NCBI RefSeq assembly: GCF_035083965.1 | Contig: NC_089727.1 | Location: 10,359,501 to 10,423,500, forward strand | Source of the DNA: Branchiostoma lanceolatum | Lineage: Eukaryota; Chordata; Leptocardii; Amphioxiformes; Branchiostomatidae | DNA length: 64,000 nucleotides | Direction: 5' to 3' | Shown here: piece by piece, positions 642 to 61,200 of the stretch | Numbering within the stretch: position 1 is the stretch's first letter | Layout of the letters: every line of letters starts with the position of its first letter | Made by a program: the position numbers and the translations under genes | Notes under the pieces: generated by a model | Told to the model about the DNA's origin: nothing | The model's input: the letters and a program-made list of their open reading frames with translations, nothing else | Databases searched by the model: none

Positions 642-816
642 GTGGACAGTTCACGGATCACCGTGAAAGAGTGAACCGATGGTGAAGACGAAGGACCTCT
701 ACCAGCCCGTGGGGTGGGTGCTGACGGCCCTGGGGGTGGCGACTGTCGGCCTGGGGTTGGGAGGACACAGAGTAGGTCTGGCTACAGCCACCCTGTGTGT
801 GGGTACGGGTGTGGGG
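642..816 (+). CDS. Start exon: short 5' UTR, TM1 and first half of TM2
   Basis: A 3' splice site (pyrimidine run plus CAG, ending at 641) precedes the start, so a non-coding upstream exon probably exists outside or near the window edge. A TGA at 664-666 is in frame with the ATG at 679, so translation begins here. Residues 1-10 are polar. Residues 11-29 and 33-46 are Gly/Ala/Val/Leu-rich and split by His-Arg, as expected of two membrane helices with a very short turn. The donor is GTAAGT at 817, phase 0. Confidence 0.8.
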
Positions 817-3800
817 GTAAGTGTGCCTACATTTCAAGTTTTCAACTTCCATATTGCCGGTTGCTACAAGCTCATAAAAGAGCAAGAAATAGCAATACCT
901 TTACGTATAGAAGTTAATAACTCCTAAGTTACTAATTGATATGACAAAGGTGTTTCAAAATTCAAACCCGTTGCCACCAAGTACAGGTAGGAGCATCCTC
1001 ACTAGATACGTTTGAATGGCGCTTGTAGCTAGATGTGCAAAGGTTAGGTGTGACAGGTCGTTCAGTGTAATATAACTAGCTGCTGCCGTGTAGGATGAAA
1101 CATATACTTGTACAGTGTTTGGTGGGATTTTTGTAATCTCCAAGCAGATCAATAGGTTGCGAAGACCGTATCAAACTGGCAGAAGAAGTACGTTTTGCAA
1201 CCCATACAAGCTCCTTCTTCCAGTTGGATACGGTCTTTGCAATCCATTGGGCCTGGTTGGAGGCTAGGATTTTTGGTGGGATTCGGTGGGATTTGATTTT
1301 GGTCGTTCAGTGTAATACAGCCAGCTGCTGTCGTGTAGGATGAAACAGTATACTTGTACAGTGTTTGGTGGGATTTTTGGTGGGATTTGATTTTGGTCGT
1401 TCAGTGTAATGTAACCAGCTGCTGCCGTGCAGGATGAAACAGTATACTTATACAACGTTTGGTGGGATTTGGCGGGATATCTAGGCACTTCTGTGTACTG
1501 TCACGTGTAGGGATTATCACATGTCAATATGTACTTAAATTTTCTCCTGGTACAGAAGATGACAAACATGCATTTCATAATATCTAAAACATTCAATCAA
1601 AAATCATATTCGGCCTCTATTTCAATGGACTTACCCTCTGATCAACAGGATTTTTCTTTGAATATCATGGACCAAACGTTTCTTTCCTGTAACCACAACT
1701 ACAGGTCGCAGTCGCTGGCATTGTGGGTATTTTCTGCGGTCGGAAGTCTGAAAAAGGCCAGCTGGTAAGTAAATTTCATATACCACTCTTTTCTAGATTT
1801 CATATACCAGTCTTTCCAAGATTTATATATAACAATCTTTCCTAGCTTCAGGCATACGCCCCTATCACACAGTACATGAGCGAACACATTTGTCGATCGA
1901 CAAAAGGTCGCCGGATCTAAAAATTGCCAGAGACTCGACTGCATCTTTCAACACAGATACAACATAAAATCCAGCAAAAGCATTGGATGTGACTAGAAGA
2001 AACATTCATCCGAATCACAGTGTTATTGATTGTACTCTTAGTAACGTTAGTTAGAAACAAACGAACATTTTCTAGCAACTATGTTATATTGAGCACACAA
2101 TGCCTAGAGTTTGATGTGCAAAGGTTAGGTGCCTTATTCCTTCGTAGTACATGCAGATGCTCGCTGTAACGTTAGATACGTATAGAAATGGTTTGCTTTG
2201 AATTTCCCGACAGAATGTTTGGACCTTGACCCTGACCTTGCTGGCGACGATCCTGTCCGTCACGGCCTTGGTGCTGAACTTCAAGGCACAAGTGTGTGCA
2301 GACCCTCCGGACTGGACGGGCGACGTCACAGGCTATCACCAGGAGTACGACGGGGCCATACGCGAGGTCGTCCATGAAGCCAATTACCAACACGGTAGGT
2401 CCGTTTTTACCGTACTATCACATCTATATGTGCTTTCCCAATTCTCATGGTCAATATGCGTTGGTCAGACAATGTCGTTTAGCGTTTGTGATAACTGTTG
2501 GTTGTTTTGGTGATTTTTCCTCCACAGGGTATCCCGATTATTAACTTTTGGTCGTTTTGTCGATTTTTTAATGACAGGAGATCCTGACTCTTCAGCGCCC
2601 GGGTACGGCCTTGCCTGTGAACACCAGATCCTGTCTGCAAACTGTCCGGCTGGCAAGGTCATCCGCATCGTGTCGGCCCTGTACGGCCGAACCCAGCCCG
2701 AAGCCGTCTGTGCAGGTCCGGTGTACACCACCCAGTGCCGCAGTACAACCAGCCTCACGGTGGTACAGGGTCGCTGTAACGGTCAACAGTCGTGTTCGGT
2801 TACAGCGAACAACAGCGAGTTCGGAGATCCATGCGTTGGCACGTTCAAGTACCTGGAGATCGAATACGAATGTACTGACACCGAGCGTGAGTCAAGTTTT
2901 CTGCCCAATGGTGCAAGATTTCCTGACAACTAATGTAAATACAGGCGTTGCCTTTCCCACACGCAAAGTGTTAACATTTCAACACAGTTTGATAGACAAT
3001 ACTGTCATTTTTTCGTTTAAGACATCTTTGCTCTTGAAATATTCATTTTTGTGTATTCAAAGTCACTTACCGAGACTTTATAAGTGGGAATCTCAGAATA
3101 GAAAGCAAATGTTCAGGTCTAGTGTTTAAATTTTCGTCCATCTTCCACAGCTATGTTTGGAAATAGCATTGAAATCTTTACATCCCAAGTTTTCCCCTTT
3201 CCTCGTTTTCCCTTTTCTTTCATTAAAATTCTTCTTCGTTGAACTAGGTCACTTATGTTGTTGTAACTTACATAATGTTTTGGATAACATCTTGTAGTAA
3301 CAAGTCTTTCTCTGGATATGCAACGCTGCCACTGAAATTGTTTGGTTCTATTTTTAAGGTCCTCGCGGTCCTAACCTCGCCTTAGGAAGACCAACACAGC
3401 AGTCAAGCGTGGGGTACGACGGTGTCCCTGAACGGGCGGTGGACGGCGTCGAGAACGGCGTCTACAGTGCCAACTCCTGCACCCACACCCAGCTGACTCA
3501 CAACCCGTGGTGGCGGGTAGACCTGGGCAGTTCGCGCAGCATCGGCGATGTCGTCATCTTCAACCGCCAGGACTGCTGCTCAGAGAGGCTGAGTCCCTTC
3601 CAGGTTCACGTAGGGGATTCCCCTGACGTGATGTCCAACCCGACCTGCGGCGGGAACCACGCGGTACCGGCGGGACAGCCAGCCGTCACCGTGGACTGCC
3701 GTGGTCGCACGGGGCGGTATGTGGGGATCCTGCTACCCACCAGGCAGTATCTCACTCTCTGTGAGGTCCAGGTGTACGAAGGTATGGATGTTATTTGGTT

Positions 3801-6800
3801 ATACCAAAGATATTTGAAGAAAAAGTGGCAACTGGACAGATATTTCTACATTTTGTGATCTAAGATATTAGAGAGTGAAATCAAATTTTATACGAGTTTT
3901 ATTTTTTTGGTTCTTTTGCCTTTTGTGAGTCCAACCAGATCTGTACAATCACCTTAAACCATATTCTAGCCATCTTTACTCGGTTATCATTGACGTTGCC
4001 GGTCAAGTACATCTTACCAGACAATAATGTTGGCGATTCCCCTCCTCAGATGTACAGGTTGAACGGCTTGGGTGCTGGACAGACACCGCTGACAGGGCCA
4101 TCCCTACAGTTGAGGGGTCGGACCCGAGGTTGGATGGACCTTACCAATCACGCCAGCAGGCCTTCCAGAAGTGCCAGGCAGTGGCACTGAATCGGAACTT
4201 GAGTGTATTTGCTCTTCAGGTATGCAGCAATGGGCTCAAGTCTCATCAAAACTATAAAGATTTTCATCAAAATAACTCTACTTTTACATGACTCTTTGCT
4301 AACTTACCTAATGATCTATGTGGTCTATATTATCATGATTGTAATGACTGTTCCGTTTCAAACAGTGGATTTCGCATGATATATTTCCTTCCATGTAGAA
4401 CGGAGGTTGGTGTGCGTCATCTGCAGAAGCTGGAAACACCTACAAGATGTACGGACCTTCGGGAGACTGCCGAGATGACGGCAAAGGCGGTCCTTGGGCA
4501 AACGAGGTCTACAAGATAACTCAACGTGAGTGCTAACGTTACTAATGTGTATGTATGAAGGCATTGATTCTACTGGGACGCCCAGTGAGTTCATGCTTTG
4601 AACCATACCTTTAAGTTATATAGTATGTAAATAGGCTTGTGTGTTGGAGATTTAAACCTTCTACTATATCAAGTCCACAGATTCAGGACCTTCCCATGAC
4701 TTTGCTTTTGACTACTCCCAACCGAATCTGAGTTGGGAGTAGCCTGGAATCGGTCCTATTCTAGTTCTAATTCGCTCCTCTGGTCGCATCTAAGCACAAT
4801 TTGACTTTCCTGACGTTGGTATTTCACTTTATTTTAAAACAAAGTGACGCAGACGACTTTTAAAGACCAGTTGGTAATCTCGCCGACGAACTCCCAAACC
4901 GCAGATAACCTTGCCCACGACTTACTCCCACCCATGGTCTGGAGAAGGTCGGGAGGCCATGGCCGGCTGTGTATGACATGTTGAGAGGGGCTTGAGGCCG
5001 TGCTCGAGCTGCTACATCTTTTTAAACTGACGTTGTGTTTCTTGTAGGAGGAAGCCTGCTGAACGAGCTGGTGTGTGAACACCAGACGGCGTCCCTACAG
5101 TGTCCCGACAGGCAGCAGATCCGCGTGGTGAGCGCCTCCTACGGCCGGACCGACGGGACCGTGTGCGGCGGGCCTGTCCGCACCACCGAGTGTAGGAGCA
5201 GAACCAGTCTGTCGGTGGTGAAGGGAGCGTGTGACGCCCGGCAGTCTTGTGTCGTATCTGCGGAAAACAGCGTGTTCGGAGATCCGTGCGTGGGGACATT
5301 CAAGTACTTGGAAGTGCAGTATGCGTGCATCGCAACACCAGGTAACGACACAGACTTGTGATTTCAACCGTGTACTTGATAAACTACATGTAGTTAAACC
5401 TGGCATTGGCGTGAAGCATCATCACATTCTGTAATTCAGAAGATGACATCGTCATATTTGTCATTGTGACTTCCCCAGACATGCCGCGCTACCTTGGCTG
5501 TTATGAGGACCATCGTGAGCGGATCTTCCCCTCAGACCGCATGGATTCTGACGACATGACGTCAGACTTGTGCATCCAACATTGCCGGGAATACGGACAT
5601 CAGTATGCGGGTACGTAATGACTTACTTTATTCCTTTTCCTTATTCAGTTATTCTATTCCTATATACAGATTTACCAACACCAGAATGGGCCCCTGTCAC
5701 ATAACAGGAAAATCGCGAGTAAAAAAAGACATTTTCGGCAGGACATACGCCCCCATGTTGCCTCGATCATCGTGCGATTTTTACAGACCGGTCGATGTTC
5801 GCAGGTCCCTGAGCCCCGTCCAATGTGATGGGATAGATTTTCAGGTGAAAAATACACCCTGTTTATAAATCCGGTGACCAAAAATACGCCTGAATTCGAA
5901 GCTCGTCTGTGTGACGTCACCTATATGCCACTCCAGCGACGTTTTGAAACTTAGAAGTTACAGGACAAAGTTCTTTGATCTTTTTCTTATTGATGGTCAT
6001 TGTCAGGACTAGATCACCTTACGGATTCAGTAATGTTTATCCCTTTTTCTTTTAACGTTTACTAGTGTTAGCTGAATACAGTAACCTGTACTGAATACCG
6101 GACCCACTACGAAAATCTTTAAGGTATGACCTAAAAGTACCGACTCCTTTGCTTAGCCACCCAGTACGCCCATGAATGTTGGTGTGGCTCTCAAAACGAC
6201 TTTGTCGGGATCGGAGGACGCCGGCCGGACTCTGAGTGCGACCTCCCGTGTCCAGGAGGTTCTACATCAGAGCAGATGTGCGGGGGGACGTGGAGAATGT
6301 CTGTCTACAGGATCGGCCGGGCAGACTGGGGTATATACGCTGTTGCTCTTTTATTTCGAACTCTACAATCGAGGTCGATATTGTAGGAGCTCCCTTACAT
6401 GTGTGTGTGTGTGTTCAAAGTTGTACTTATTTGTTTTGCAAGAGACACACATAATCCAATATTGCAAGATATCTTCATCATGTCATGCGAAGAATTGAAG
6501 CTCTAGCTAACCTCTCAATTATGAAAACAACAATTGAAATTTCAAAAGCAAACGCGATATGATGGATGTGGACTAGTTATGTCGTCTTTACGACACGTAC
6601 TGATTTATTTCGCGCTCTGTGATCGAGCAAACATCGTACGGCTGTAAAGACACACAGACCTCTGTTGACATGACTGTGAGTTCCGAGAACATATACCTCC
6701 GTCAGGCTCCGTGGATTATTTACCAAGTTGCGTCATCTGTACATGAAGGAAGAAATCGTTGAAAAAACCTACTCGTCGGTTATATAGATTACAACATTTG

Positions 6801-9800
6801 CTGTATAATTTGTATTCTGTAATTTCATACTCATTTAAGTCAAGCATTGCCACATCAATCATGAAAAGCCACTGAAGTTTCAAAGGCAAACGCGATATGA
6901 CGGATGTGAGCTAGCTATAGACAAACCTATTGAAATATTCGATGCAGTTTCTCTATTCTCTAATGTGTACTCAATACACAACCACGTGTTCTCAGGACCT
7001 GATCCGGTAGGTCTGTGGCCGTTCAACGAGCAGTACGGCGCAGGAGACGCAACAGGAAACGGAAATGACGGAGTGGCAACAGGAACCCGCTTGGTCCCAG
7101 GTCCCTTTGGAAACGTCAAGGGCGCTTTCCTGTTTTCGGGGACTACAAATTCCTACATCGACATTCCTAACAACGGAGTCTTGGATGTGCGCTCCTCATA
7201 CACCATACTGGCACACATCTTCCCAACCGGCGAGGCCGGGCCGATCTTCAACTACGTCGGGAACAACAACCAGTGGGCGGTGCATCTCTGGCTGACGGCT
7301 CCGCAGGACCTCTTCATGCGGTAAGATTACATACCACACACGGAATATTCAACCTCAAAAAAAAGAAGCATAACCACAAAGACCTGAGGTGTCGAAAAAG
7401 ACTGCTCGTTGCAGATGAAAACACAGAATTAAGTTTACTTGAGTTAGTTTACTGTGCACAAAACTTTATAGGAGCTGCATTAATATATCGTTTGTCTTCC
7501 TTACTGTCCTTACTGTCCTTACTGCGTCCGATTTCAGTAACTAACTAAACGTTAGCCTCAAATTGGCTTCCATCATGAAAAAAAAAAGGAATCGTAAATA
7601 TCATATGTTGTCCAGTGAAAAAACAACATACTAATGGAAGGCCGCAACGTTACATTTAGAGCGATGTATAATCATGGAGATAATTCCCTCTGTTGTAGGA
7701 CGGTGGGAAGAGACGGACATTTCTCACCTGCCATCGGTGCGACTGTCCTGCAGCAGAACGCCTGGAACTACGTGGGCGGAACCTACGACAGTTCCACAGG
7801 CGTGTCATCCATCTGGAACAACGGCCAACTGGCTAGTCAGAAACAGGTCGGAGTCCCAGCGGTCGCAAGTCAGTACCCCATCCGGGTGGGCAAGAGGGAC
7901 GGAGACAGTCGGATTTTCTCGGGCCGTATTGCCTGTCTGCAGCTGTACAACTTCGCAATGACTGCCGACCAGATTGCAGCAGCACGGGATAAGTGTGGAG
8001 GTGAGTCCAGGAGAGATACTACTACACGTAGTAGTATGTAGTGAGGCTGTCCATTCTATGGACTGTTGATGTGTTCAGGTGTTACAAATATGTGCTTTTT
8101 GCCACATCCCTGTCTGCTAAATACAATGTATGGGTCTTTCTCCACATCTCTATCTGCTATAATATGTGCCTTTGCCTAATCTCCTCCTGCTAGCGCTGAC
8201 ACCCCCACGGCCGATTGAGCCCGTCGGTAGTCAGCTGCAGCGTCTCGGCTGTTGGGCGGACACTGCCGACCGCGCCGTCCCCACCTTGGAGGGTTCCGAC
8301 CCCGGCCTGGACGGACGGTACGGATCACGCACTGACGTCATCAGGAAGTGTCGGGATGCCGCCGCCAGACGGGGATACAACGTGTTTGCCATCCAGGTGC
8401 GTCTTATTCAAACTGTGAGGCCGTTGTGGACATAATTTGAACGGACGCCTCTATTGGAACAATGATCTTCGTTTGGAACCCACTAGTCCTTTTGGGACTG
8501 TTCTTTTGGGACTCAAGTATTAGAGTGTAGACTTCAGAACTTGATTTTTGTTTCACATATAGTGGATAATTGTGCACAGTACATGAGTGATCTGTCGTTA
8601 TTGTAAATGAATCTATAATGTACACTTTACAGAACGGTGGATGGTGTGCCGCGTCGGCCGACGCACTGCAGACTTACCAGATGTACGGCCGGTCCGACGC
8701 TTGTCGCGCCGACGGCGAGGGAGGCCCCTGGGCGAACGAGGTCTACAAGATTGTAACACGTGAGTTCGTTATCTGTTACAGACAATGCATTAAATTTGAT
8801 AGCATATCATCATGCCATTATGGAGAAATTAAACTGTTTGCCAACTCAAGAAATTGGACTCGCGGGAATTTCCGACAGAATCGCTCAGTCCTCGACAGCT
8901 ATCTCATCCAATTTCTCTGGACATCAGACTCTATACAAGTCTGACGTCAGCAATGGGTCAAAGGTTGTGGGAAGTAGATATCGCTCCCCGTCCCGGTTTA
9001 GAGAAGATCCCAATGCCATGTTCGCTTGTCATCTAGCAACCACTGTAGTCATTACTTTATAAAGCGCTTGCAGTATTGTATATAAAACCTCACAAATGCT
9101 TCTTGCCGTCACACCAATTGCATTATTTGGCTTACAGGTCCACAACCACAGCCAGGCTTGGTGTGTGAACGCTCCACCATGTCCATACAGTGTCCTGCTC
9201 ACAAGGTCATCCATATCCAGTCAGCCATGTACGGACGCGTGCCCGGTGGGTCGGTGTGCGGCACTGTCTACACCGGAGCGCCGTGCAGGAGCCCCACCAG
9301 CCTCTCGGTCCTACAGGAACGGTGCGACGGCAGGAAGACCTGCTCGGTGCAGGCTGAAAATGGCCTTTTCGGCGATCCGTGTGTCGGAACGAACAAGTAT
9401 CTGGCAGTAGAATATGAGTGCGTCCGCGTTCCAGGTTGGTACGACCTTTTTAACCCCAACATTGAGTGTTCTTAATCATCTTATCGGGAAGTTTTATGTA
9501 CTGTATGACTATGATGTCACATCATCTGTTTACCGGAGTCATGTCCGAATGTAGTGCACCCGGAGCCTCCATGCCTCACGTTTATTCAAATGCCGAAATG
9601 GACGTCTGGGTAGTGGGTACACATGTAAAGGCTTTCCTTCACTTCGACAAGCAAGAAATGTATCACATGAGCGTCTGGTTCAATAACATGGTCTTATTCA
9701 TATCGGTCGTCTATATTGTACCTTTTAGGGAAAATAACAATACTTAGGAAGAAAACGTAAATATGTATGTTGAAAAAGATGTTGAAATCAATGCCCATTA

Positions 9801-12800
9801 TCACCATCACATACCCTCCAGGTTACAAGGGCTGCTACGAAGACATCGAGTCTCGCAAGTTTCCGGCTGACGAAATGCAGTCCGATAAGATGACGCCAGA
9901 GATGTGTGTCCGACACTGTAAAGACAACGGACATGCTTACGCTGGTGAGTCATATATTAGACATCAAGGCACATGTACGTTTCTAACTGATACTGTGACA
10001 AAAACGTTGAACATTTATTGCGTTACAGGCAATGCAATGGCCCATTGTCGCATACGTCACGATACATCGATCATTGTCGGCTGTTGGCTCTGTCATGTCG
10101 TCATAGCCTGCTTGAAAATAACATTCTACAGCATCAAAAGCTAACGACAACCTACGACCGAATGTAAGCACACCTTAAGACATCATTGCCGTGCCGTAAA
10201 ACCTGACGTAAAGTTACTTTCGAATTAGCAGAGGTTGTTTGGGAAAATTGTGACCCCGTTTTTTGTCCGAACTCTCAAAGTGTTCTCGGGGAGTTCAGAC
10301 AAAACATATCATATGATAAAAAGGTCACAGTCTTAACCAACCTCTGCTTGTAGAGTAACTTTAAGTATCACGTATGACTGTTTTCCCCAGCCACTCAGTA
10401 CTCCCGTGAGTGCTGGTGCGGGTCCGAACACCATTTGGACGGTCTCGGCAGCCGCCTACCAGAGACGGAATGTGACAAACCGTGCCCGGGTGATGCGGAC
10501 CAATGGTGCGGGGGGACGTGGAGGATGTCGGTGTATGGAGTCCAGGATCGCGACGGTAAACATCAAGCCTCTCATGGTCACGTACATTCTTTTTGATAAC
10601 TATTCAGAAATCGAACTATTCTATAAGAAATAATGGACCCACTTGAATGTCTTCTTCGGCTTTTTGACCCCTTATTCTGGATATGAGACTTTATGCACGT
10701 GTGACCCAGCAGTGGGTATAAAAGGTTGTTGGAGGTTGATATCGCCCCCCGTCCCGGTTAAAGCCCCTGTCACACTTGTGCGTATAGACAAGTCCGCATG
10801 AGTTGCGTATTAACATGTTTTTGGTTTAGGTTAAGCTTGCAGCCGAAGAAGTTATTTCTTAGGTTCGATCACTTCGCTGTACAACGGTGGGTCAAAGTAG
10901 AAAACAACTTTTCCCCGCAAACCTTACTTAAACCAAGGAAATGTTAATGTGCAACTCACGTGCCCTTGAATATACGCACAAGTGTGACAGGGCCCTAAGA
11001 GAAGGTTTTCGCGCTCTGATGTACATGTAGATGACCGTCTTAACTATCAATGACAGCGATAGTTTCTATCTTTTTGTAAATACATGTGTTTAGAATAACA
11101 ACTATTTTCACGAATGACAAAGTGAATCTTTGTCTGTTTTCTAACAGTTTGTGAGACCCCCAGCACGGACACCCAGTACCGGTACCGCTGGGACATGCCC
11201 CGCCTGACAGGACAGCGCTTCACGTTTGAGGTGCAGGCCAACAATGACGCCCATGTGGCGCTGTCCTCCCAGAGCCAGGACATGGACGACATGTACGAAA
11301 TCGTCATCGGTGGCTGGTCCAACACACAGTCCGTCATACGCCGCAGCAAGCAAGGCAACAACCATGCCACAGCCTCAACATCTGGTCAGTTTCTACTGAA
11401 CCCTCTTAATACTGCTGTGGAGCATTCTGTAGTTCTAATACTTCATAGTTACAGAGTTTTTATTACCTACGTGAAAACAGGGGTGTCGTTTTTGGTATGT
11501 TTGTTTGTCTTGGTGTGTGTTGCGGTTTGTTCCCTCTGGCTTGGGTCCAAGTTTGTCCCTGGGCTGAGTTGTAACCGGAGAGTGGCAGGATGGGAAGGTT
11601 AAGATGGCCTGCCTCCAAATTTCTTCAGCAGGCTGGCAGAAAGTGAACGTTGGTACATGACCATAAGTCAGGAACCCGAGGAAGGCATGTGTCTGAGAGT
11701 GGGCATGTAATGTGTGAAACGGACATGGTTGTGATATATTTTGTCAATAAATTTACAAAAACTCTAAATATTTCACAGAAGTATGAGATCTTGTCTTATT
11801 TCTGTCTTTGCCCACAGGCATCAACTCCCCCACAGAGTACAGGACCTTCTGGATCACCTGGTCTTCAGACGGAACCATTGCTGTTGGGAGGGGTGGGGAA
11901 ACTCAGCCGTTCATGCAGTGGACAGACCCAGACCCTCTGCCCATTGCCTATGCTGGATACACCACTGGGTGGGGGAGTACAGGGAGGTGGAAGTTCTGCC
12001 ACGCTGCTCGGCCTGCAGGTATGTTTGAACACCGATTAATCTGGTGGTCGAAATATATCACAGATGTGATACTATGGAACCAGGTAGAAAGGAATATGAG
12101 GTAAGGGTTTCATTTATGCATTTCTAGGTAGTTGTATTATTCCTGTTTCCTTTATCAGCCGTAGTACAATAGCTTTAATCTGGGTGCTTCCATTCTCACT
12201 CCCTCAAAATAGAATTAAATATTTGTGTTAGGGAGCGAGGCTACACATGTTTTGGACTTCATGTGCTTTCAAGTCAGTTCATAGCACAACGGCCCACTAC
12301 TCACATATCCTCAGATGGTCTTTGAAGATTAAAAAAAATCTACCGATAGCCCTGTATAGCCTCCTTTATGAAAGGCACTGAGATCTGTCATACTTCTCAT
12401 ACACAGAGACAGGGATGCAATCCTCCGTGGAAGCCCCTCGGAAGCGGTCAGGCTGTTCACCATGCAGACATATCGCCTTCTACGTGAAGATCTCCACATC
12501 CATTATGCTCTCCCTGTGCCTGCTGGCCTGCCTTCTGGCATGTTTGGGATATCGACGGTTCGACAGTAAGGTTAGCTGGACTTCATGTTTCTACATAAAG
12601 CAGATTTCATTTATTCTAGTGTGCAATAAACAGATACAAACCCTCTCAACCACTGCACCAGAAATGATTAATGACAAGTTGCAACTTTGCAGTTGTATTT
12701 TCTGACTCCAAAATTGTTTCATAGCAGTTTTAAAGGATGACAAAAAGGATTGTTTTCTGTTATTTCAGAAGTTCAGAAATGCTGTGAAACAGCCACCGGA

Positions 12801-13434
12801 TATATTCTCCATATCCACCGCACCACCCCCAGGTAAGCTGCGCTGTGTTTTCTTTTCATAATTGCATTTTCTAGTACATGTAGCTGTTTTTGAGATCCAG
12901 TAACGTTACCACTGGGACCCAAAAAAGCTTGATGTATCAGATCCTTGGCATTTCGATGTAGCCAAACAGCTAGCAATTGCAAGATTTATACTTGTTACCA
13001 GGTAACCATGTTACATGTACATGTACCTCGGATCCATAAAACAGGTTCACTGTAGTATTGTTTTTGGTCTGTGTGTTTGGTCTGTGTGTATGTGTAGTTA
13101 TTTGAATATTGTAAGGTGACAGGTTGTGAGAATGGCTGAAGATAGCATGATAGAAAGGTTGGCTTGAACGGGTCCAAAGTTGGTCCCACAGGCTGGTAGG
13201 AACATACTTAGACAGACTTAGCGAGGAATCCACAATAATGAATAAAACAAGAAAATTCACAAAAATAATATTTCATGGAAGTATGAGATCTTTGACTTCT
13301 TGCTTTCCATGTCGTACGTAGGTCTCACCAATGATTATGGTGTGGCACCACTGGGTCCGGCTGTGGCAGACGATCCACCACCACCATACCCACAGGAGGA
13401 CAGCCCTTGCTATAAAGCCACCGCTGACACCTAG
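679..13434 (+). CDS. Four-pass membrane protein with a giant lectin/WSC/LamG ectodomain (22 coding exons)
   Basis: Exons, all with GT-AG junctions and agreeing phases: 679-816, 1705-1764, 2214-2394, 2578-2886, 3359-3781, 4050-4219, 4399-4525, 5048-5341, 5479-5610, 6157-6330, 6996-7320, 7699-8000, 8194-8396, 8633-8759, 9138-9434, 9822-9944, 10391-10555, 11148-11384, 11818-12018, 12407-12570, 12769-12832, 13322-13434. They total 4,329 nt, or 1,442 aa. Order: TM1 (about residues 11-29), TM2 (33-57), TM3 (68-89), SUEL, F-type lectin, GCW module, SUEL, WSC, LamG, GCW module, SUEL, WSC, FAMeT, TM4 (1358-1377), tail with PPPPY at 1424-1428. The topology resembles MS4A/CD20 with loop 2 enlarged. Nearly every module is bounded by phase-1 introns, as in shuffled extracellular domains. 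The start is fixed by an in-frame TGA at 664. The likely role is cell-surface carbohydrate recognition (inference). I do not recognise a named orthologue. Confidence 0.85.
1050..1475. repeat. Diverged repeat copies flanking a hairpin, intron 1
   Basis: A unit of about 75-80 bp containing GTCGTTCAGTGTAAT and ending in GTTTGGTGGGATT occurs at about 1053-1133, 1293-1375 and 1394-1465. Between the first two copies, 1154-1245 forms an inverted repeat (GACCGTATCAAACTGG pairing with CCAGTTGGATACGGTC). The arrangement suggests a small fold-back element amplified in place. Confidence 0.6.
1705..2394 (+). CDS. TM2-TM3 exons and extracellular stem (1705-1764 and 2214-2394)
   Basis: The 60-nt exon 1705-1764 completes TM2 (ending IFCGRKSEKG, a charged intracellular turn). 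Exon 2214-2394 gives TM3 (residues 68-89) followed by a hydrophilic stem with one Cys (residue 94) that leaves the membrane on the extracellular side. The basic loop between TM2 and TM3 supports inside-out-inside-out topology. This exon leaves in phase 1, the phase used by almost all ectodomain modules that follow. Confidence 0.8.
2578..2886 (+). CDS. SUEL-type (galactose/rhamnose-binding) lectin domain 1
   Basis: A single phase 1-1 exon, residues about 127-230. It shows the family signatures ACEH near the start, LYGRT in the middle and GDPCVGTFKYLEIEYEC at the end, with eight cysteines in the usual spacing. YGR and DPC are the conserved sugar-contact motifs of this family, and both are present. 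Members bind L-rhamnose or D-galactose and also occur in latrophilins. Confidence 0.95.
3359..3781 (+). CDS. F-type (fucose-binding) lectin domain
   Basis: A phase 1-1 exon, residues about 231-371. It opens NLALGRPTQQSS, the usual start of F5/8-like fucolectins, and has NPWWRVDLG followed by NRQDCCSERL. The fucose-binding motif H-X26-R-X-D-X4-R is met exactly: the His of CTHTQ, then the Arg, Asp and Arg of RQDCCSER. The adjacent Cys-Cys pair that stacks on fucose is present. The domain is therefore predicted to bind L-fucose. Confidence 0.93.
4050..4525 (+). CDS. GCW/WANEVY module, copy A (exons 4050-4219 and 4399-4525)
   Basis: A two-exon module of about 99 residues (371-469), entering in phase 1, split internally in phase 0 and leaving in phase 1. 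Its marks are LGCWTDTADRAIPTVEG, then FALQNGGWCASSAEA and GGPWANEVY. A second copy lies at 8194-8759 with the same split point and an identical second-exon length of 127 nt. I have seen this pattern in marine-invertebrate mosaic proteins but know no domain name for it. A ligand-binding role is a guess. Confidence 0.85.
5048..5341 (+). CDS. SUEL-type lectin domain 2
   Basis: A phase 1-1 exon, residues about 470-567. It has VCEH, SYGRTDGTVC and FGDPCVGTFKYLEVQYAC, with YGR and DPC intact. It follows GCW module A and precedes the first WSC domain, the same order as domain 3 downstream. Confidence 0.95.
5479..6330 (+). CDS. WSC domain 1 (exons 5479-5610 and 6157-6330)
   Basis: Residues about 568-669. 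The first exon gives YLGCYED and SDLCIQHCREYG. The second gives the CWCG motif, then CDLPCPGG and MCGGTWRMSVY. These are the eight-cysteine marks of WSC domains, which are putative carbohydrate-binding units of cell-surface proteins (fungal stress sensors, polycystin-1, kremen). The internal intron is phase 1, as in the second copy. Confidence 0.93.
6519..6918. repeat. Duplicated 60-bp motif in intron 10 of the receptor gene
   Basis: The phrase GCAAACGCGATATGA with its flanks occurs at about 6519-6579 and again at 6859-6918, about 80% alike. No coding sequence lies between them, and the intron (6331-6995) is otherwise featureless. Confidence 0.5.
6996..8000 (+). CDS. LamG/concanavalin-like (LamG-3) domain (exons 6996-7320 and 7699-8000)
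   Basis: Residues about 670-878. It begins VGLWPFNEQYGAGDATGNGN, typical of LamG-like jelly-roll domains of the pentraxin/LamG-3 group. NAWNYVGGTYDSSTG and a closing IFSGRIACLQLYNFAMT strand follow. The internal intron is phase 2 and the flanking introns are phase 1. It is the only module of its type here and sits between the two GCW-SUEL-WSC blocks. Confidence 0.9.
8194..8759 (+). CDS. GCW/WANEVY module, copy B (exons 8194-8396 and 8633-8759)
   Basis: Residues about 879-988. It has LGCWADTADRAVPTLEG, then FAIQ, the exon break, NGGWCAASADA and GGPWANEVYKI. The second exon is 127 nt, exactly as in copy A (4399-4525), and the break falls at the same residue. The first exon has a longer proline-containing leader of about 12 residues than copy A. 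Confidence 0.85.
9138..9434 (+). CDS. SUEL-type lectin domain 3
   Basis: A phase 1-1 exon, residues about 989-1087. It has LVCER, MYGRVPGGSVC and FGDPCVGTNKYLAVEYEC, with YGR and DPC retained. The leader is Pro/Gln-rich (PQPQPG). It occupies the same place relative to its GCW and WSC neighbours as domain 2. Confidence 0.95.
9822..10555 (+). CDS. WSC domain 2 (exons 9822-9944 and 10391-10555)
   Basis: Residues about 1088-1183. It has YKGCYEDIESRKFP and MCVRHCKDNG, then CWCGSEH, CDKPCPG and WCGGTWRMSVYG. The break between exons falls just before ATQY, as in WSC 1. The intron holds a fold-back repeat at about 10209-10365. Confidence 0.93.
10209..10365. mobile_element. Fold-back MITE-like element, WSC-2 intron
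   Basis: Imperfect inverted arms: AAGTTACTTTCGAATTAGCA at the left pairs with a right arm ending GTAGAGTAACTTTAAG. Both contain GCAGAGGTT or its complement AACCTCTGC. An inner inverted pair (GTCCGAACTCTC against GAGTTCAGAC) completes the hairpin. No ORF. The AGCAGAGGTT core is shared with the 39.6-39.9 kb element. Confidence 0.6.
10760..10996. mobile_element. MITE-like element with CCCTGTCACACTTGTGCGTAT inverted termini
   Basis: The left arm begins GCCCCTGTCACACTTGTG and the right arm ends CACAAGTGTGACAGGGCCCT. Inner inverted pairs (GTATTAACATG against ATGTTAATGTG, GGTTTAGGTTAAG against CTTACTTAAACC) extend the fold-back to about 235 bp. There is no coding capacity. Confidence 0.65.
11148..12018 (+). 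CDS. Farnesoic acid O-methyltransferase-like (FAMeT) domain (exons 11148-11384 and 11818-12018)
   Basis: Residues about 1184-1329. The series FTFEVQANNDAHVALSS, MYEIVIGGWSNTQSVIRR, FWITWSSDGTIAVGRG and GYTTGWGSTGRWKFC is typical of the so-called farnesoic acid O-methyltransferase domain. In animals this domain occurs mostly in extracellular mosaic proteins and is thought to be lectin-like rather than enzymatic. It is the last ectodomain module before TM4. Confidence 0.92.
12407..13434 (+). CDS. TM4 exon and PPPPY cytoplasmic tail (12407-12570, 12769-12832, 13322-13434)
   Basis: Residues 1330-1442. A basic, Cys-containing juxtamembrane stretch leads into a Leu/Cys/Ala-rich helix (about 1358-1377) ending GYRRF, a stop-transfer signal. 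The tail has Pro-rich SISTAPPPG and then DDPPPPYPQED, a PPxY motif for WW domains, and ends at TAG 13432. Two acceptors 6 nt apart (exon from 12407 or 12413) are both in frame. A stronger-looking donor at 12566 would run into a stop in the last exon, so 12570 is preferred. Confidence 0.85.
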
Positions 13435-16069: not shown

Positions 16070-16554
16070 AGGTCTCGTGCTTGTATTACTCCGAGTGTAC
16101 AGTCTCAAAGAATCCGTGGTCTGAAAATATGAATAGGCCCCAACAGGGTGTGTTTAGGTGGATCATAAATTGCCTTTAATCGACCCCATCTGATATGAAA
16201 AGGATTTGAGGTGAAAGCTTGTGTATTACTGCCAGGATTGGGTAGGAAAGTTTCGGCATCCGAGCGACTGTCGGACGTGCACGGTTGTTCGTGCTGAGTG
16301 GTGCGGTCAGGGGCTAGCGGCCTAAGAGAGCCTCTTGCGAACATAGTGGATAAGTGCAGTTATGAATACCATAGATATCGATCACGGGGTCAGATTTTTG
16401 TGACATTTTTTTCAGTGCCTCACGAAGAAGTGTGCTCACAGTAGAAAGCAAAACATCTCCAAAAAAACTGTTTCTTTATTGGCTTTGCGACCATAAAAGT
16501 TGCGTAATATAACATGTAAACCAATGGAACGGCCTAATTGCGGTGGGAGACCTT
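16070..16554. repeat. Left copy of the 485-bp terminal repeat
   Basis: It is identical by eye to 17464-17948. It contains a 79-codon open frame on the - strand, duplicated in the other copy, with no recognisable domain. That frame is probably not a gene. Confidence 0.85.
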
Positions 16555-17463: not shown

Positions 17464-17948
17464 AGGTCTCGTGCTTGTATTACTCCGAGTGTACAGTCTC
17501 AAAGAATCCGTGGTCTGAAAATATGAATAGGCCCCAACAGGGTGTGTTTAGGTGGATCATAAATTGCCTTTAATCGACCCCATCTGATATGAAAAGGATT
17601 TGAGGTGAAAGCTTGTGTATTACTGCCAGGATTGGGTAGGAAAGTTTCGGCATCCGAGCGACTGTCGGACGTGCACGGTTGTTCGTGCTGAGTGGTGCGG
17701 TCAGGGGCTAGCGGCCTAAGAGAGCCTCTTGCGAACATAGTGGATAAGTGCAGTTATGAATACCATAGATATCGATCACGGGGTCAGATTTTTGTGACAT
17801 TTTTTTCAGTGCCTCACGAAGAAGTGTGCTCACAGTAGAAAGCAAAACATCTCCAAAAAAACTGTTTCTTTATTGGCTTTGCGACCATAAAAGTTGCGTA
17901 ATATAACATGTAAACCAATGGAACGGCCTAATTGCGGTGGGAGACCTT
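17464..17948. repeat. Right copy of the 485-bp terminal repeat
   Basis: The direct-repeat partner of 16070-16554. Identity between the two indicates recent insertion or recent gene conversion. Confidence 0.85.
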
Positions 17949-29378: not shown

Positions 29379-30560
29379 ATGGAGCCCCGCAGAAGCCGCC
29401 AGCAGCCGACTGTGCGACACAAGGAGCCGGATCTAGTTTGGTTACCCCGTCAACTGTGTCCGGACAGTCCCCGCACCACCCCGCGGACACAAACCTTCTC
29501 ACGGCGGGACCAGAGCCGACCCGGCCCCGCGCGGAGGGACAGACACAGTTCCCGCGAGCCGGGCAGGCGGTCGGTTCAACCGGTCCCCGGAGTCGCTCGG
29601 GAGGTTTCCAGGGTACATCTCAGGAACAGCTCGGGGACACGAGGGTCCCGGGACTCGGGCAGAGATAGCAGCGCCTCCCGCCTTGAAAATGGCCGCGAGT
29701 CGCGGAGTTCCCCCCACGGAAGTTCCGCTCGGAGTTCACGGGAATCAGCTAACTTTGCGCGGCAGAGCAGCCTGCGGAGTAGCGCCGGTAGAAGGGCGGA
29801 ACATAGCTCTGGGGACAACAGGAACGCGCGAGTTCAAGTCCCAGAGAACGAACAGGACATTCTCTCTATAGACCAGATTAAACCCAGCTCACATCGAGTG
29901 GAGAATGAGTACGTGGATCCCTTCAAGAAAAGCAAAAATAACAACAGTCTGCAAAGAACTTCAACGGGGTCGCTGAGGTCTGTCAACACTATCGTACGAG
30001 TGGACAGTAGGTCTGACCGAGACCATGTAGAGGTGAGAACAGTTGGACACAAGAAACCAAAGTTTCAACACAACACCAGCACGATTAAAAAGGAGACAGA
30101 CAAGAGTAAAATCAAGGTGAGAACTGAAGTCAAATCGGAGGAACATCCTTTTTTCCACTGTTCGGAGTGCGGGAGATGCAAATGCCCGGATTGCGCACAG
30201 AAGAAAGTAGAAAACACACATGATGGAACCTGCGGGAATAGGTTGATGTGTACTGGTGAGGATGCTCTGGAGTATGCGACGTGTATGTGCTGTGTGAAGG
30301 GCGTCTTCTACCATTGTAGCAAAGACAACTGTGACGATGATTTCCGCAGCGCAGACAACCCGTGTTCCTGCAGTAGGAAACACTGCTTCCTGCGCTGGAC
30401 CGCTTTGGGACTGATGGGGATGTTTCTTCCCTGTCTGTTGTGCTACCTTCCTGTGCGGGGATGTATGAGATTAACCACGGCCTGTAACCACAGAGAACAT
30501 AAAAAAGGATGTTTGTGTAGAAGTCAGGCTCAAAGCATCAACTACCAATCGAACTGCTAG
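29379..30560 (+). CDS. SPRY: Sprouty protein, inhibitor of receptor-tyrosine-kinase signalling
   Basis: A single coding exon of 393 aa; TAA sits in frame directly before the ATG. Residues 257-383 are the cysteine-rich Sprouty domain: FFHCSECGRCKCPDC, then YATCMCCVKGVFYHCS, NPCSCSRKHC, RWTALG and FLPCLLCYLPVRGC. This domain is palmitoylated and targets the membrane. SIDQIK followed by NEYVDP around Tyr178 matches the conserved N-terminal tyrosine that, phosphorylated, binds Cbl. A Ser/Thr-rich stretch (about 186-203) sits where other Sproutys have theirs. Residues 1-155 are a long Arg/Ser/Pro-rich, apparently disordered extension, longer than in the vertebrate proteins (about 300 aa total). 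No EVH1 domain is present, so it is not a SPRED. Known role: feedback inhibition of FGF/EGF-Ras-ERK signalling. Confidence 0.95.
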   Translation: MEPRRSRQQPTVRHKEPDLVWLPRQLCPDSPRTTPRTQTFSRRDQSRPGPARRDRHSSREPGRRSVQPVPGVAREVSRVHLRNSSGTRGSRDSGRDSSASRLENGRESRSSPHGSSARSSRESANFARQSSLRSSAGRRAEHSSGDNRNARVQVPENEQDILSIDQIKPSSHRVENEYVDPFKKSKNNNSLQRTSTGSLRSVNTIVRVDSRSDRDHVEVRTVGHKKPKFQHNTSTIKKETDKSKIKVRTEVKSEEHPFFHCSECGRCKCPDCAQKKVENTHDGTCGNRLMCTGEDALEYATCMCCVKGVFYHCSKDNCDDDFRSADNPCSCSRKHCFLRWTALGLMGMFLPCLLCYLPVRGCMRLTTACNHREHKKGCLCRSQAQSINYQSNC

Positions 30561-43560: not shown

Positions 43561-44095
43561 CATACAAGTACATAATCTATGTCTCTTTTAGATTGCAGGT
43601 GAAGTGATCCAACAAATACAGTTTAACAATGTATTATCAACATCATATTGTAATCTTTAACAAAATTTAATATACATTGTACAATTACAAGTACTGTACT
43701 TGTGTTTGGCCTCCAAAAAAAGACAGGTTCTGCTTGGATCAGGGAAGCAGAAACACAACATTTTGTTCCTAGGAATTAGCTGGAAATGCAACTTCACAAC
43801 AGCTTGTGAACAGCACACCAGGTCCCCCTTACTCTTCTCGATAAGTGTGTTGGGTTCTTTTATATTCAGAGGCTTGATGTCTGAGGCTAATGCCTGATGA
43901 AGCATCCCCATACACAGGGCCGCCAGTTTTGCGAGAAAATGAGTGCAACCCCTCACAACGTGCCCCAGCTGGAGTCTGAACCGAAGGATCTGCAGAATTT
44001 GATCCTACAGAATCTGACACGGGCAGGCTGGTTACCACTTCCTACTGGAGCCCTGGTCACAGGATGTCTGACTTCCTACACATGGTACAGTCTGT

Positions 44096-46892: not shown

Positions 46893-49800
46893 TCAGTAGT
46901 AGAAGAACAAGTAGTGTCGGTTGTTGCCCTGTATGGCTTGCCGGCGGACACGCACGTAGTTGAAGAGGCCTTGGAGACATATCATTACACCTGTAGGGGC
47001 AGAAAATATCCAGTTATGGCCTCAGATCTGTTAATTGATACTCAAGCAGGACTCCAATTCTCGTCTGTCTCCAGCAACTCACAATACATGTACTGCATGC
47101 AATTGACTCATTTTCAAACATTTTTTTGAAAACTGCAGGTACATGTAGATCTAATAATACATTTCTATTTCAGACTATTGTCAAGGCACATTGTCACTAC
47201 AGAACTACAGCTTCACTAGTGAGCCCTCTTGGTTTTAGCTTGCTACCACTAAGTCAAATTTTTCTCATAGACAACTTTGTTGAATGCAACACATGTGCTC
47301 CTCTAAAAACAGCCATCCATGAAAAATCATCCTGCTCTACGTGGAGGTAGGGGACCCATGAATGGCACTTTGTCTAGTGTTTAACAATAATGATACAGTA
47401 AAAGAGAGAAAAGCTAGTGACTTTCTGCCTGTGATGAAACTAGAGACAGCACAATGAGATTACAGAGGACAGTTTGCTCCAAAGAATGAAACGTGCTTGC
47501 AGTTTGAAGGGAAGTGTTTATGGGAGGTGGCTCAAAAATGTCATCTCTTCTTTCTAAGGATACTTTGGCCGTGAGTGACTCACCCAACACAATGAGGATC
47601 CACCATAGCCAAGTCTGGCTGTCCACAATATCTGTGCAGCATTGTGAATGCTGGAAAAGAAAAGAGAGAGTGTTAAAATTCAAGGGACTAGGAAAACTAC
47701 ATGAAATGATGTAAAATTTACACATTGATCATCACACATCTGACTTGTACTATCTAGTTTTTGCCTTCAGAGACTTATTCTTGATTTCTCTGACTGAGAG
47801 GTGGTTTGTATCTTGTCTATTGAAATGATTTCCATCCCAACTTGCACCATTTCTGCTCTGTGAAATCTAGCAGGACTGAGTCATAGATATGTATATCACC
47901 GGGAGTGAACAGGATCTTACACAGGTTACCAGGGTTTCCTTCAAATTACTACCGAAGAGAAGACATTTACAGGTAATAACACCTTAACATTCATGTACAA
48001 CAATACCTTTACATTCATGTACATCTGATACCTCACAGTTGATAACAGATCTGACTGAACCTTCAACATACTATAGTCAAAACTTGACCGGAGTGTCTTG
48101 TAAGCACAACTGGCCAGTCATTACATTATACATGCTTTAAGGTGGCACGGTGGGCTTGTATTTATGGTTGCTGACTTAGATACTAATCTGAATTTAAACT
48201 TATGAAATCCGAGCAGGCCCCAAATGCTATTTCCTTGCGAAAGGTACTTAACACATGAAAATGAGTCCCTAGCTTCTGTAAGGGATGTCCTCTCTGATGG
48301 GAGGTAAAGTCGGAAGTGCTGTGTTTGAGGATAGCCACACCTAGACCATATCAAAGATCTGACAGCACTTATTGAAAAGAGTAGGGTCCAATCCCTGTGT
48401 GAGTTGGTCAAACCTCACAGCCCAGTTTTACGCAGCTTCTACGTACTGTACAAAACTGGTGTGTCACATCTGAAGGCAGTTTACTGGTTATGGCAAACTG
48501 GTTATGAACAAAGAAACAATACCTTGAAGATAAGAATCCACTTGACCAGTGACAAGCCAAAGCCTGACAGGGCCCCAAGTCGTCCTGCAGCACTGGAGCT
48601 GAGACAGTATGCCATCAGGAACCCGATCCAGTTAAACAGGAACGCAACTGTCAACAGGGCAGGGAAAAAGAGTTAACCATTTTACCTTGTGCTTAATTGT
48701 GTTGAAAATTCAACTTGTTGTACAATGCGTTATTTGTTTAACTATTGGGACCAGGACCACAATGAAACAAGTAATGTTTTTGAAAAAGTTGGCCAAGCGA
48801 GAATTAGCAGGGGTGTCACGCAGGGGTGCAGAAACTTGGTGGCCAACCAAAGAGAATCCTCAATCCCTCAAACACCTGCATGGTAAAAATAACAAAGCAC
48901 ATATCCCTGATGCAACATGCTGGGTGTTGACCTTCTTGGTGAAATTTCACATCAATAGTCTGCAATATCACTTTCTTAGAGAAGGACAACTTACAGACAA
49001 AGGACAGGAAGAAGATGGAGTCATTGCCGACGGTCATGTCTCTGGCTGTGCCGCTGACCGACTCATCATCACTGCTGAGTGTCTCTGTCACTTGCCCATT
49101 CTGCAAATGAAGTATCAATTAGAGCATGTACTAATTTGACATTAAAGTATACATATGTATCAGGAACAATGCATATCAGGAAGCAAATTGTAGTACACTA
49201 CACTGAAACTTCAGTCCTTGGAGTAATCTTTACTTTCCAACCAAACTCATAAGAAGACTCACACTGTCTGTGATCTTGGTGGCCTCCTCGTAGGTGGGCA
49301 GCTTGGCCGCCACCTCAGAGTAGGGGGGCGGGGCAGGCTGGGCACTGGCATCTAGTCTGTCTTCTTCATGGTCTGAAGGAGTAAGGGTGAAAATATATGA
49401 CACACAATATATCAGAAGATATTGATTGGATTTGGTAGTAAGCAGGGCTGTCTCCAGGACCTGTCCCTCTGTCCTGGACGGCAATCTGCTTGTTGGGACG
49501 GACAAAACTTATGTCTCACTCCACCCTAGGAACGAAAAAAGAAACACTGATTGGAGTTCAGAGACGAAAATAAGCATCTGGCTTATAAAGATATGCATTT
49601 GGATGTATGTGTAGTTTCACTCTCTTATAATAATTATAAGTGGGTCACTGGGTCATAATTTACTTCTAATTGAACTTCCCTTTTACTGCTGTTTGCCTCC
49701 GACAAGCTTCCAAGGCAAGGGTGTGGTCATTTTGAAATCAACTCAGTCGCTGGTGAAAATCTTCACAACACATTGAGAAACTTCAGTCTCGAGAAGAGAT

Positions 49801-58259: not shown

Positions 58260-61200
58260 ATGTCTAAACTGGCCGGGATGGAGAGTTCGGCCACCAGTGT
58301 GCTGCGGCGGGCGGTAGAGCTGGACGGGACCGCCCGCCTGCCCGAGGCACTGGTCTGCTATCAGGAGGGGATACAACTTCTACTCGATGTTTTAAAGGGT
58401 GCGTCGGCTCATGTCTTTGTTCCTGTCAATAAGAATATGTTTGTACTTTATTTGACAGTATGTTCCTGTCAATAAGAATTTTGTGCACTGTTGACAGTAT
58501 GTTCCTGTCAATACGAATTTGCACTGTTGTCTGTTGACAGAATGTTCCTGCCTGTTAACGTTAAGTAACGGGGGGTGCCCAATATTCGGACGTTTTTTTA
58601 CGCGCTGGAACTCACGGCGCTCCATTGCTGGTTGCCAGAGAGTGGTCAGGTTTTAATGAATGAATTTTGAACACATTCATCTAAAGACCATACTTGGACA
58701 AGAAATGTATTCATACTGTTCATGGGCCCTTCATGCTCCGCGTTACATGCGGAAGACGCTGTGAGACATTTTCACGAATGTACCTTCTGATTTAGTGCTA
58801 CGCCAGATAGTGTGCCTAACTTCGTACGCTTTGGTAATTTTGCTCTCTTCGGAAGTTAGTGATGAAGTTAGGGAAATGTAAATTAGGCTTGAAGTCTGCT
58901 ATATTCTAGCTTTCTTTTGACCGGAAAATTTTGACTGTGTGCACTTCTAACGTCATGTGAGAAGGGCTATATCTAGCGCATCCCAGCTCATGTTCCCACG
59001 GGAAATAGGCTACTACGCGGCCCGACGTACGTATTGAATGCGGCCCGACTTACGAAATCATTACGAAAAAACGACACCGCTTACATCAACAATACTCCGT
59101 CTACTTATTGGGAAACATCTTCGCCATCTCTGTATTCAGTTTCCTTTTCATAGACGGTACCAATCACATGTTAGAGCGTAACAAAGCTGTGCGTTGAATC
59201 GTCCCGCCACCATCGCGGTCCAAAAAAATGGCGGGAAAACAACGTCGTCAGACGACAGCAATGTTTACGTTGTTTTTCTTTGGTCGGTTTTCTTCTCAAC
59301 AAACACTTAAAGACCCAAATTTTTAGTGTTTTATGAAATTATTTTTCTCATGTGTATGATAGCTGTGTGACTTATGTATCAGCTGCTTGGCACAGGTCGT
59401 ATATTTAGGTGCCGGGCCGTCTAGCTACGCAGTGACCCTCTACTCAGCGTTGCCATCATTAATGTCAAAATACTACTTTTCGACAAAACAAGAAATGAAT
59501 ATGTACACATATGTTTTGAATGTAAATGACAATTTTGTGCATGAACTTGGGTTATTTACCTTCCTTATCAGCATAGTCATTGGACACAAACACGGCGTTC
59601 TTATGCAAAATAAGATCAGTAAAAAACCCGTGCGATGTTCGGGCGCGTGCGAGGTTCGGGCGGCCCCCGTTATCTTTTTTTTTCACTATTGACAAGATAT
59701 TCCTGCCAACTAGAAAACTTTTTTGTACTATTGACAGGGTGTTCAAAAAATAGGAAACCCTCCAGTCCAAGTGCTTTGAAAAGCAAAAATGAAAACTGTC
59801 ACTATTGTAACCACCATTTTAACCCTTCTACAGCAACAACAGATGAGGCTAAAAAGACCAGGTACAGAGAGCGGATACGAGAGTACATGGACAGGGCAGA
59901 GGAAATTTAGAAACATGTTCAACTGGAAAAAGAAGGTGAGAAAACCTGTTAGAGTAGAGTTTACAGTCAGGTGAAATGTTCACAGCTGATTGGTATGTTA
60001 TGGCATTTTTAAATTTACTTACAAGTACATACCAGGTTACTTCAGTGAGAGTTACTAGTTTGTTCATATGCATGGTAGATGTGTGTACTACGTAGTAGAC
60101 TGAATAGACCACTACCACGTACCAAAGGACATAAACATCTGACAGTCATCTCTGATCTATGCATATCTGTCCACACAAACACACATGTACGCATGTACAC
60201 ACACACACACACAAATGTAGACACACATAAACACACACACACACACACACAGACAAACCAAAAGCTATACTTCAGTCTTTTGGTGTGAAGTAGTACCACA
60301 ACACAGCTACAGCAATGGTATAGCCCTGCACTGAGGTAAGTCGGCAAGGGTTTTGTCATAACTTCAGTTTGGGGTGCATGGCCTGCCAAGTTATCATAAT
60401 TAAATTAGATTGTCAAGATATTTAGTAGTGTTTGGAAGAGTGGAAATCTTACCTTGTGGTGTATTGCTAAGTTTTGTATTGAATTTCTTATTTCAGCTGG
60501 GAAGTACCATGAACAAATCCACATCGCTGCTGGTTCAGTAGGTTACAGTTATGACAGACTCTTCAGACCATATATGGACAAGACCCTGGCAGAGGTATGG
60601 GTGGATGACCCCTACATTAGGTCAAAACACCAGGTAAGATTGGAGTTCCGCAGTGCATCTGCAAGATGATATTGTGGATAAAATTGGGTTCCTATACTAG
60701 AAATACTACAGTATAACTGTATATGCAATTTATTCGTTGTTGAATCATACCACCAGTATTTCATTATGCTAATGTTAATAAAGCAAATCAGTTCTGAATT
60801 ATATTTTCTGAATAAAGTTACTTAGAAAAAATAAAGATTATTTCTACTTTGATGGCATTATCCCACATCTGTCAATAGCTTGGATTTATCCATGTTTGTC
60901 CAAGTTTATTCCGCTGGGTAATACTTCCAATGCCCTGACAGATTCCCATCTTATTTTGCAGATAATGAATTTCCTGAGGTTTTGTGAGTTACTTGTGAAG
61001 TCTGACTGCCAGGTTCAGAGGATACATCTCACTACAGGAGAAGAGGAGGTAGGACAATGAACAATACTTACAGTAGGGGCAATTTTATGCCAATGGGTAT
61101 GTTGATAATGCCTTCCTTGTTGGTAGTTTTGTGTAAAGCATAGTTCCAAAATTGATGGTAATTTTGTAAAACACTGGTGGCATTATAATTCTGCTGGAGG

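Follow-up and report, generated by a model that had tools for sequence, protein, structure and literature searches.

A candidate four-pass membrane protein whose second loop carries a lectin array of ten modules, encoded at a locus of Branchiostoma lanceolatum

Introduction

Latrophilins (ADGRL) are receptors with seven transmembrane (TM) helices and a single N-terminal SUEL module, accompanied by olfactomedin and GAIN domains. The gene described here, located at 679-13434 on the forward strand (+) of a 64,000-nucleotide stretch of Branchiostoma lanceolatum DNA (NC_089727.1, positions 10,359,501 to 10,423,500; this whole stretch is called the window), resembles them in combining a SUEL module with a multi-pass receptor, with PDB matches to latrophilins of 7.4e-18 and weaker, but differs from their plan by four predicted passes and by an array of modules carried in a loop. 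The REJ/polycystin-1 (PKD1) proteins provide another parallel, with big ectodomains that contain SUEL or WSC modules and, in some members, many membrane passes; the family features given in the accessible part of the sea urchin survey are PKD repeats, REJ, GPS and PLAT domains, and 0-11 TM helices (PMC1934368). At the lancelet locus, in contrast, no REJ, GPS or PLAT domain is among the Pfam matches listed, and the array stands between TM3 and TM4. The second module of the array is a member of the F-type lectins, typified by eel agglutinin and FBP32, with a complete fucose triad. As domain combinations of this family, the accessible text of a review names C-type lectin, CCP, pentraxin, FA58C and transmembrane domains; proteins of diverse domain content are mentioned for Branchiostoma floridae. 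An array in the loop of a four-pass protein is not among the combinations named there (PMC5712786). Among the papers listed by literature searches on lectin and multidomain architectures, none names, in its title or abstract opening, a four-pass protein with a lectin array.

The gene product is read here, with a probability of roughly 55%, as a multivalent surface lectin receptor on a tetraspan scaffold, with trafficking signals for uptake in its tail. This reading is preferred because of the continuous 22-exon frame, the four predicted helices, an intron 3 of only 183 base pairs (bp), the modules recognized by Pfam and PDB matches, the fucose triad, the SUEL motifs, and the motifs of the tail.

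Gene model and splicing

Between 679 and 13434, 22 exons join into a single in-phase open frame of 1,442 amino acids, with GT-AG borders at all 21 introns, in agreement with the initial annotation of this DNA, which had claimed one gene of 22 phase-compatible exons. The frame begins with the ATG at 679, preceded by an in-frame TGA at 664, and closes with the stop codon at 13432-13434; the G+C content of the exons (0.50-0.67) exceeds that of the introns (0.34-0.45). Exon 1 (679-816; frame, hydropathy, codon bias) provides the start codon, TM1 and the first half of TM2 (residues 1-46) and ends in phase 0. It is followed by exon 2 (1705-1764; frame, codon bias), a 60-bp exon of phase 0-0 that completes TM2 and adds the cytosolic loop (residues 47-66), and by exon 3 (2214-2394; hydropathy, codon bias), which encodes TM3 and the start of the second extracellular loop (residues 67-126) and ends in phase 1. 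A 94-bp tandem repeat of 2.1 copies is located within intron 1 (1272-1470). At the other end of the gene, exon 20 (12407-12570; hydropathy, enumeration, codon bias), entered in phase 1 and left in phase 0, carries a basic juxtamembrane stretch, TM4 and the motif YRRF; exon 21 (12769-12832), assigned from the frame, continues the cytosolic tail, and exon 22 (13322-13434; frame, motif) completes it with PPPPYPQE and the stop codon.

A codon-bias model was trained on exons 4-19 only, and each remaining exon was compared with 4000 random open stretches. Support was strong for exons 1 and 3, neither of which was matched by any of the 4000 stretches, and moderate for exons 2, 20 and 22 (matched by 3.7%, 3.7% and 1.6% of the random stretches, respectively). 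Splice sites were scored by a model trained on introns 4-18, with six donors and six acceptors held out and ranked among the sites of the window. All six held-out donors fell within the top 2.5% of the GTs in the window, and the acceptors of introns 2 and 20 within the top 8% and 5%.

The continuation beyond exon 19 was enumerated under the limits of acceptor scores above -2, donor scores above 1, no more than four exons and a stop codon upstream of 14000; stops created at junctions were kept in, and the 12th listed path contains one. The gene model took rank 5 among 475,475 such continuations, the four placed above it differing by small tail pieces added or trimmed. Exon 20, in full or trimmed, is part of each of the best 12, of which 10 finish in the PPPPY tail. 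For the other border, an enumeration of upstream starts in 1-2577, confined to single leading exons, gave scores of 20.6-31.7 for six variants beginning at 679 and 5.1 for a seventh, compared to at most 3.0 for exons beginning elsewhere. Exons 20-22 are the weakest part of the gene model.

Membrane helices and topology

Kyte-Doolittle hydropathy in windows of 19 residues reached the threshold of at least 1.5 at four places only, the best windows being at residues 11, 39, 71 and 1358. The corresponding helices, three N-terminal and one near the C-terminus, extend over about 11-29, 39-57, 68-88 and 1358-1378, such that 1,269 residues separate helix 3 from helix 4 with the helix borders set by us. 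Both the four helices and the placement of a lectin array within the second loop, as claimed previously, are borne out by these data, all ten modules being located in the 1,269 residues. We infer a topology with both termini in the cytosol and the array outside the cell; the charges that favor this arrangement are those of the cytosolic loop (+3/-1), of the first 20 residues of the tail (+6/-2) and of the segment following TM3 (+1/-3).

The ten-module array and its predicted sugar sites

From the N-terminal side, the modules follow one another in the order SUEL, F-type lectin, WSC-like, SUEL, WSC, LamG-type, WSC-like, SUEL, WSC and PF12248. The Pfam search of the whole protein listed 14 families, eight of them below and six above the respective cut-offs, the latter being SUEL (3.1e-66, three stretches), PF12248 (1.3e-44), WSC (8.2e-42, four stretches), F5_F8_type_C_2 (7.5e-21), Laminin_G_3 (6.1e-15) and F5_F8_type_C (1e-8). 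The fucose-, galactose/rhamnose- and WSC/LamG-type modules of the initial annotation were all recovered by Pfam and PDB matches, ten modules in total. A search for paralogues within the window returned a single match outside the gene (E = 0.25).

The three SUEL, or galactose/rhamnose-binding, modules are encoded by exon 4 (2578-2886; PDB matches 5h4s 1.4e-65 and CSL3 2.9e-30), exon 8 (5048-5341; the best SUEL stretch, residues 486-563) and exon 15 (9138-9434). YGR, DPC and KYL are the motif names of the SUEL/rhamnose-binding lectin domain, and each of the three modules contains all of them, which together with the Pfam score (PF02140, 3.1e-66) identifies the modules as SUEL.

The F-type module is encoded by exon 5 (3359-3781) and matches FBP32 (3.5e-55) and eel agglutinin 1k12 (1.7e-20) in the PDB search. 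In the alignment, His272, Arg299 and Arg306 fall on His52, Arg79 and Arg86 of eel agglutinin, which according to the accessible part of the review are the residues that hold fucose (PMC5712786), and a contiguous pair of cysteines aligns with Cys82-Cys83. By this alignment the module keeps the complete fucose triad; its membership in the F-type family is indicated by relatives of the same fold and by the His-Arg-Arg triad with RXDX4R. The histidine precedes the first arginine by 26 intervening residues, exactly as His52 precedes Arg79, while the motif is printed as HX24 in the review (PMC5712786). The motif hhDG, given in the same text as the cation motif of F-type lectins (PMC5712786), is present as AVDGV, with valine at a position usually taken by a small hydrophilic residue. 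In all, four modules, three SUEL and one F-type, carry conserved lectin binding-site residues or motifs and are predicted sugar sites.

WSC (PF01822) reached 141.8 bits in the whole protein, compared to a gathering score of 27.8, with its best stretch (residues 1089-1170) in exons 16-17 (WSC module 2; 9822-10555, comprising 9822-9944 and 10391-10555). Exons 9-10 (5479-6330; 5479-5610 and 6157-6330) are taken as WSC module 1, an assignment that comes from the four stretches of the whole-protein scan and not from a separate score. Exons 6-7 (4050-4525; 4050-4219 and 4399-4525) and exons 13-14 (8194-8759; 8194-8396 and 8633-8759), which are 65% identical, gave WSC values of 3.9e-4 and 3.3e-4 when scanned alone (21 bits, cut-off 27.8); to judge by these values they are diverged relatives of WSC below the Pfam cut-off, and the PDB search with the WSC-like module found nothing. 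The LamG/concanavalin-like module occupies exons 11-12 (6996-8000; 6996-7320 and 7699-8000), with Laminin_G_3 (6.1e-15) at residues 719-871. The array closes with the PF12248 module, whose family name is farnesoic acid O-methyl transferase, in exons 18-19 (11148-12018; 11148-11384 and 11818-12018); its best match in the PDB search was no better than 0.059.

Origin of the array

Phase-1 introns flanking a module are the expected mark of exon shuffling. They are found at both borders of each of the ten modules, and the block of exons 4-19 likewise begins and ends in phase 1, which suggests that the second loop was expanded through phase-1 exon shuffling. If exons 4-19 are left out, exon 3 joins exon 20 in phase to give a plain small four-pass protein; the array may therefore have entered a simple four-pass gene at a phase-1 intron. 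The succession WSC-like/SUEL/WSC occurs twice, at 4050-6330 and 8194-10555, once before and once after the LamG module. Besides the WSC-like pair, SUEL modules 2 and 3 are 54% identical, and the WSC modules agree at 54 of 93 aligned positions. The repeated block suggests a segmental duplication, the history of which would not be simple, since SUEL module 2 is closer to SUEL module 1 (64%) than to SUEL module 3 (54%).

The tetraspan scaffold

The four-helix part fits no family tested above cut-off. With tetraspanins it shares the four TM helices and a large loop between TM3 and TM4; however, Tetraspanin (PF00335) appeared with only one of four constructs, the N-terminal piece (E = 0.0074), and at 16.4 bits stayed below the gathering score of 32.1, and the CCG motif is missing throughout the 1,442 residues. 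Three families obtained with the N-terminal piece, Smim3 (0.0037), Tetraspanin (0.0074) and BCLP (0.034), were set aside because shuffled sequences give comparable unrelated families: segment-wise shuffled controls hit unrelated Pfam families in five of eight cases, the best at 0.0086. Smim3 and Tetraspanin are slightly better than this value, so that their exclusion is not strict, and Tetraspanin is kept as a weak, general pointer to tetraspans. A match to an NCBIfam V-type ATP synthase subunit (1.3e-4; 20.5 bits vs 1044) was treated as an effect of composition.

The protein shares with CD20/MS4A four TM helices, a feature that is not family-specific, and, in the topology inferred here, a second loop larger than the first; it differs by the length of this loop, about 1,270 residues compared to tens in MS4A, and by the lack of a profile or pairwise match. 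The relatedness to MS4A claimed by the initial annotation found no support in profile or pairwise tests. In the Pfam scan for CD20 (PF04103), which found both controls (CD20, 6.7e-48; FceRI-beta, 1.6e-30), none of four constructs was reported at E ≤ 10, although most matches beyond about 0.1 are removed by the search filters, and the fourth construct contains TM4 only. Residues 1-127, searched against the PDB, gave five chains up to E = 10, with no CD20 among them. When TM1-TM3 were aligned locally with CD20 and with two FceRI-beta chains, the scores were 24, 33 and 31, compared to shuffled means of 30-31; these scores were reached by 1768, 558 and 884 of 2000 segment-wise shuffles, while the score of 100 for the control pair of CD20 and FceRI-beta was reached by none of 2000. 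The stretch YP-x-WG common to CD20 and FceRI-beta is absent by eye.

Alternative readings

A diverged CD20/MS4A member whose loop 2 acquired a lectin array would account for the four helices and the big second loop, and exon 2, a 60-bp exon of phase 0-0 that runs from the middle of TM2 through the cytosolic loop, fits this idea. In human MS4A1, the corresponding site (residues 94-112) is encoded by a 57-bp exon, likewise of phase 0-0, and a phase-0 intron directly follows TM4; the gene is not known to have a phase-1 intron in loop 2, which counts against the kinship, and literature searches for MS4A exon boundaries yielded none. Further arguments on the negative side are the Pfam result (none of four constructs, both controls found), the alignment scores at the shuffled level and the missing YP-x-WG stretch. 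In addition, the MS4A survey, in its accessible part, places the origin of the family in jawed vertebrates, finds no invertebrate MS4A, and dismisses lancelet and other invertebrate candidates, short transmembrane similarities being considered unspecific (PMC2826416). We regard membership in this family as doubtful, and the fuller proposal of an ancient CD20-like tetraspan that became a glycan pattern receptor by taking up a shuffled array of ten lectin modules in loop 2 as unlikely; if true, it would bear on the origin of the CD20 family, in a lineage thought to lack it. A serious rival to the uptake receptor, albeit a tentative one, would be an adhesion or gamete-recognition molecule, in which the same loop binds glycans of a partner cell and the tail only sets turnover. 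According to the accessible part of the sea urchin study, sperm SpREJ3 has SUEL, SpREJ6, 7 and 10 have WSC, and some REJ proteins pair SUEL or WSC with many membrane passes (PMC1934368); the match of the SUEL module to latrophilins points in the same direction. Against it, YRRF and PPPY suggest trafficking.

Several observations weigh against the receptor reading itself. The codon bias of exon 21 is matched by 31% of random stretches and so lends no support, and four of the six held-out acceptors, those of introns 1 (top 38%), 3 (16%), 19 (18%) and 21 (22%), do not stand out. Immediately ahead of TM4, a stretch assigned to the outside has charges of +5/-1, and those of the entire C-terminal tail are +7/-8, which weakens the positive-inside argument; the whole protein has two N-glycosylation sequons only. 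The YXX-hydrophobic pattern is common, with 20 occurrences in the protein, of which YRRF alone lies at the tail. No relatives were confirmed for a test of conservation among viral contigs (WSC-like module, N-terminus) or prokaryote genomes (WSC-like module), as expected because this is an animal gene. Acceptors of no particular strength at introns 3, 19 and 21, together with the lack of codon-bias support for exon 21, would also suit two or three neighboring genes, or a decayed fusion, with exons 1-3, 4-19 and 20-22 not in one transcript and in phase by chance; prediction errors are known for multidomain animal proteins, as stated in the accessible parts of two reports (PMC3927609, PMC3713709). 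On the other hand, the 183 bp of intron 3 could hardly accommodate a gene end followed by the promoter, start and signal peptide of a further gene, no comparable alternative start of the array is found among single leading exons in 1-2577, the best 12 continuations of exon 19 all use exon 20 or its trimmed form, and the phase fits at both borders. Separate genes thus appear quite improbable.

Other features of the window

Downstream of the gene, two identical direct repeats of 485 bp (16070-16554 and 17464-17948), 1,394 bp apart, each end in the inverted pair AGGTCTC/GAGACCT. On visual inspection, TTTA is read at both outer borders and TTAA at both inner borders if one or two repeat bases are included. 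The pair looks like a young mobile element of the long terminal repeat or terminal inverted repeat type. A single-exon Sprouty gene lies at 29379-30557 (+; Pfam 1.7e-29), and open stretches with an MIT domain and MIT_C at 59623-60666 (+; MIT_C 2.3e-10; MIT 1.9e-4, below cut-off) belong to a protein that we take to be MITD1-like. The open stretch at 49233-49508 (-), with PPPYSEV and LPTYEEA and no Pfam match, presumably resembles the tails of NEDD4 adaptors. ARAGORN in bacterial mode reported a doubtful tRNA-Thr (cgt) of 92 bases at 43960-44051 (-), with no Rfam match.

Proposed function and significance

Two motifs mark the cytosolic tail, YRRF at residue 1378, next to the membrane, and PPPY at residue 1425, the latter in accordance with the PPxY tail noted earlier. 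Motifs of these types couple membrane proteins to AP-2 and NEDD4-type ubiquitin ligases, respectively, and the receptor probably has an endocytic role. In the receptor reading preferred here, a single animal gene would give rise to a surface protein that crosses the membrane four times and keeps its N- and C-termini in the cytosol. Its array, on one chain held in the membrane at either end, would present several weak sugar sites, for fucose, for galactose/rhamnose and perhaps for further sugars. Such a chain may bind by avidity to glycan-rich surfaces, be it microbes, mucus, gametes or other cells; the tetraspan part would serve as the anchor and probably clusters the receptor, and YRRF and PPPY would connect the tail to the uptake and turnover machinery. 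Glycan binding, clustering and endocytosis are thus predicted properties of the protein.

In lectin receptors, the part that binds sugar is usually attached to a single end of the membrane anchor. In the present protein, this part would be a loop fixed at both ends of a four-pass scaffold, an arrangement that should alter avidity, shedding and clustering, and the gene would represent a clean example of phase-1 exon shuffling turning a small membrane protein into a receptor.

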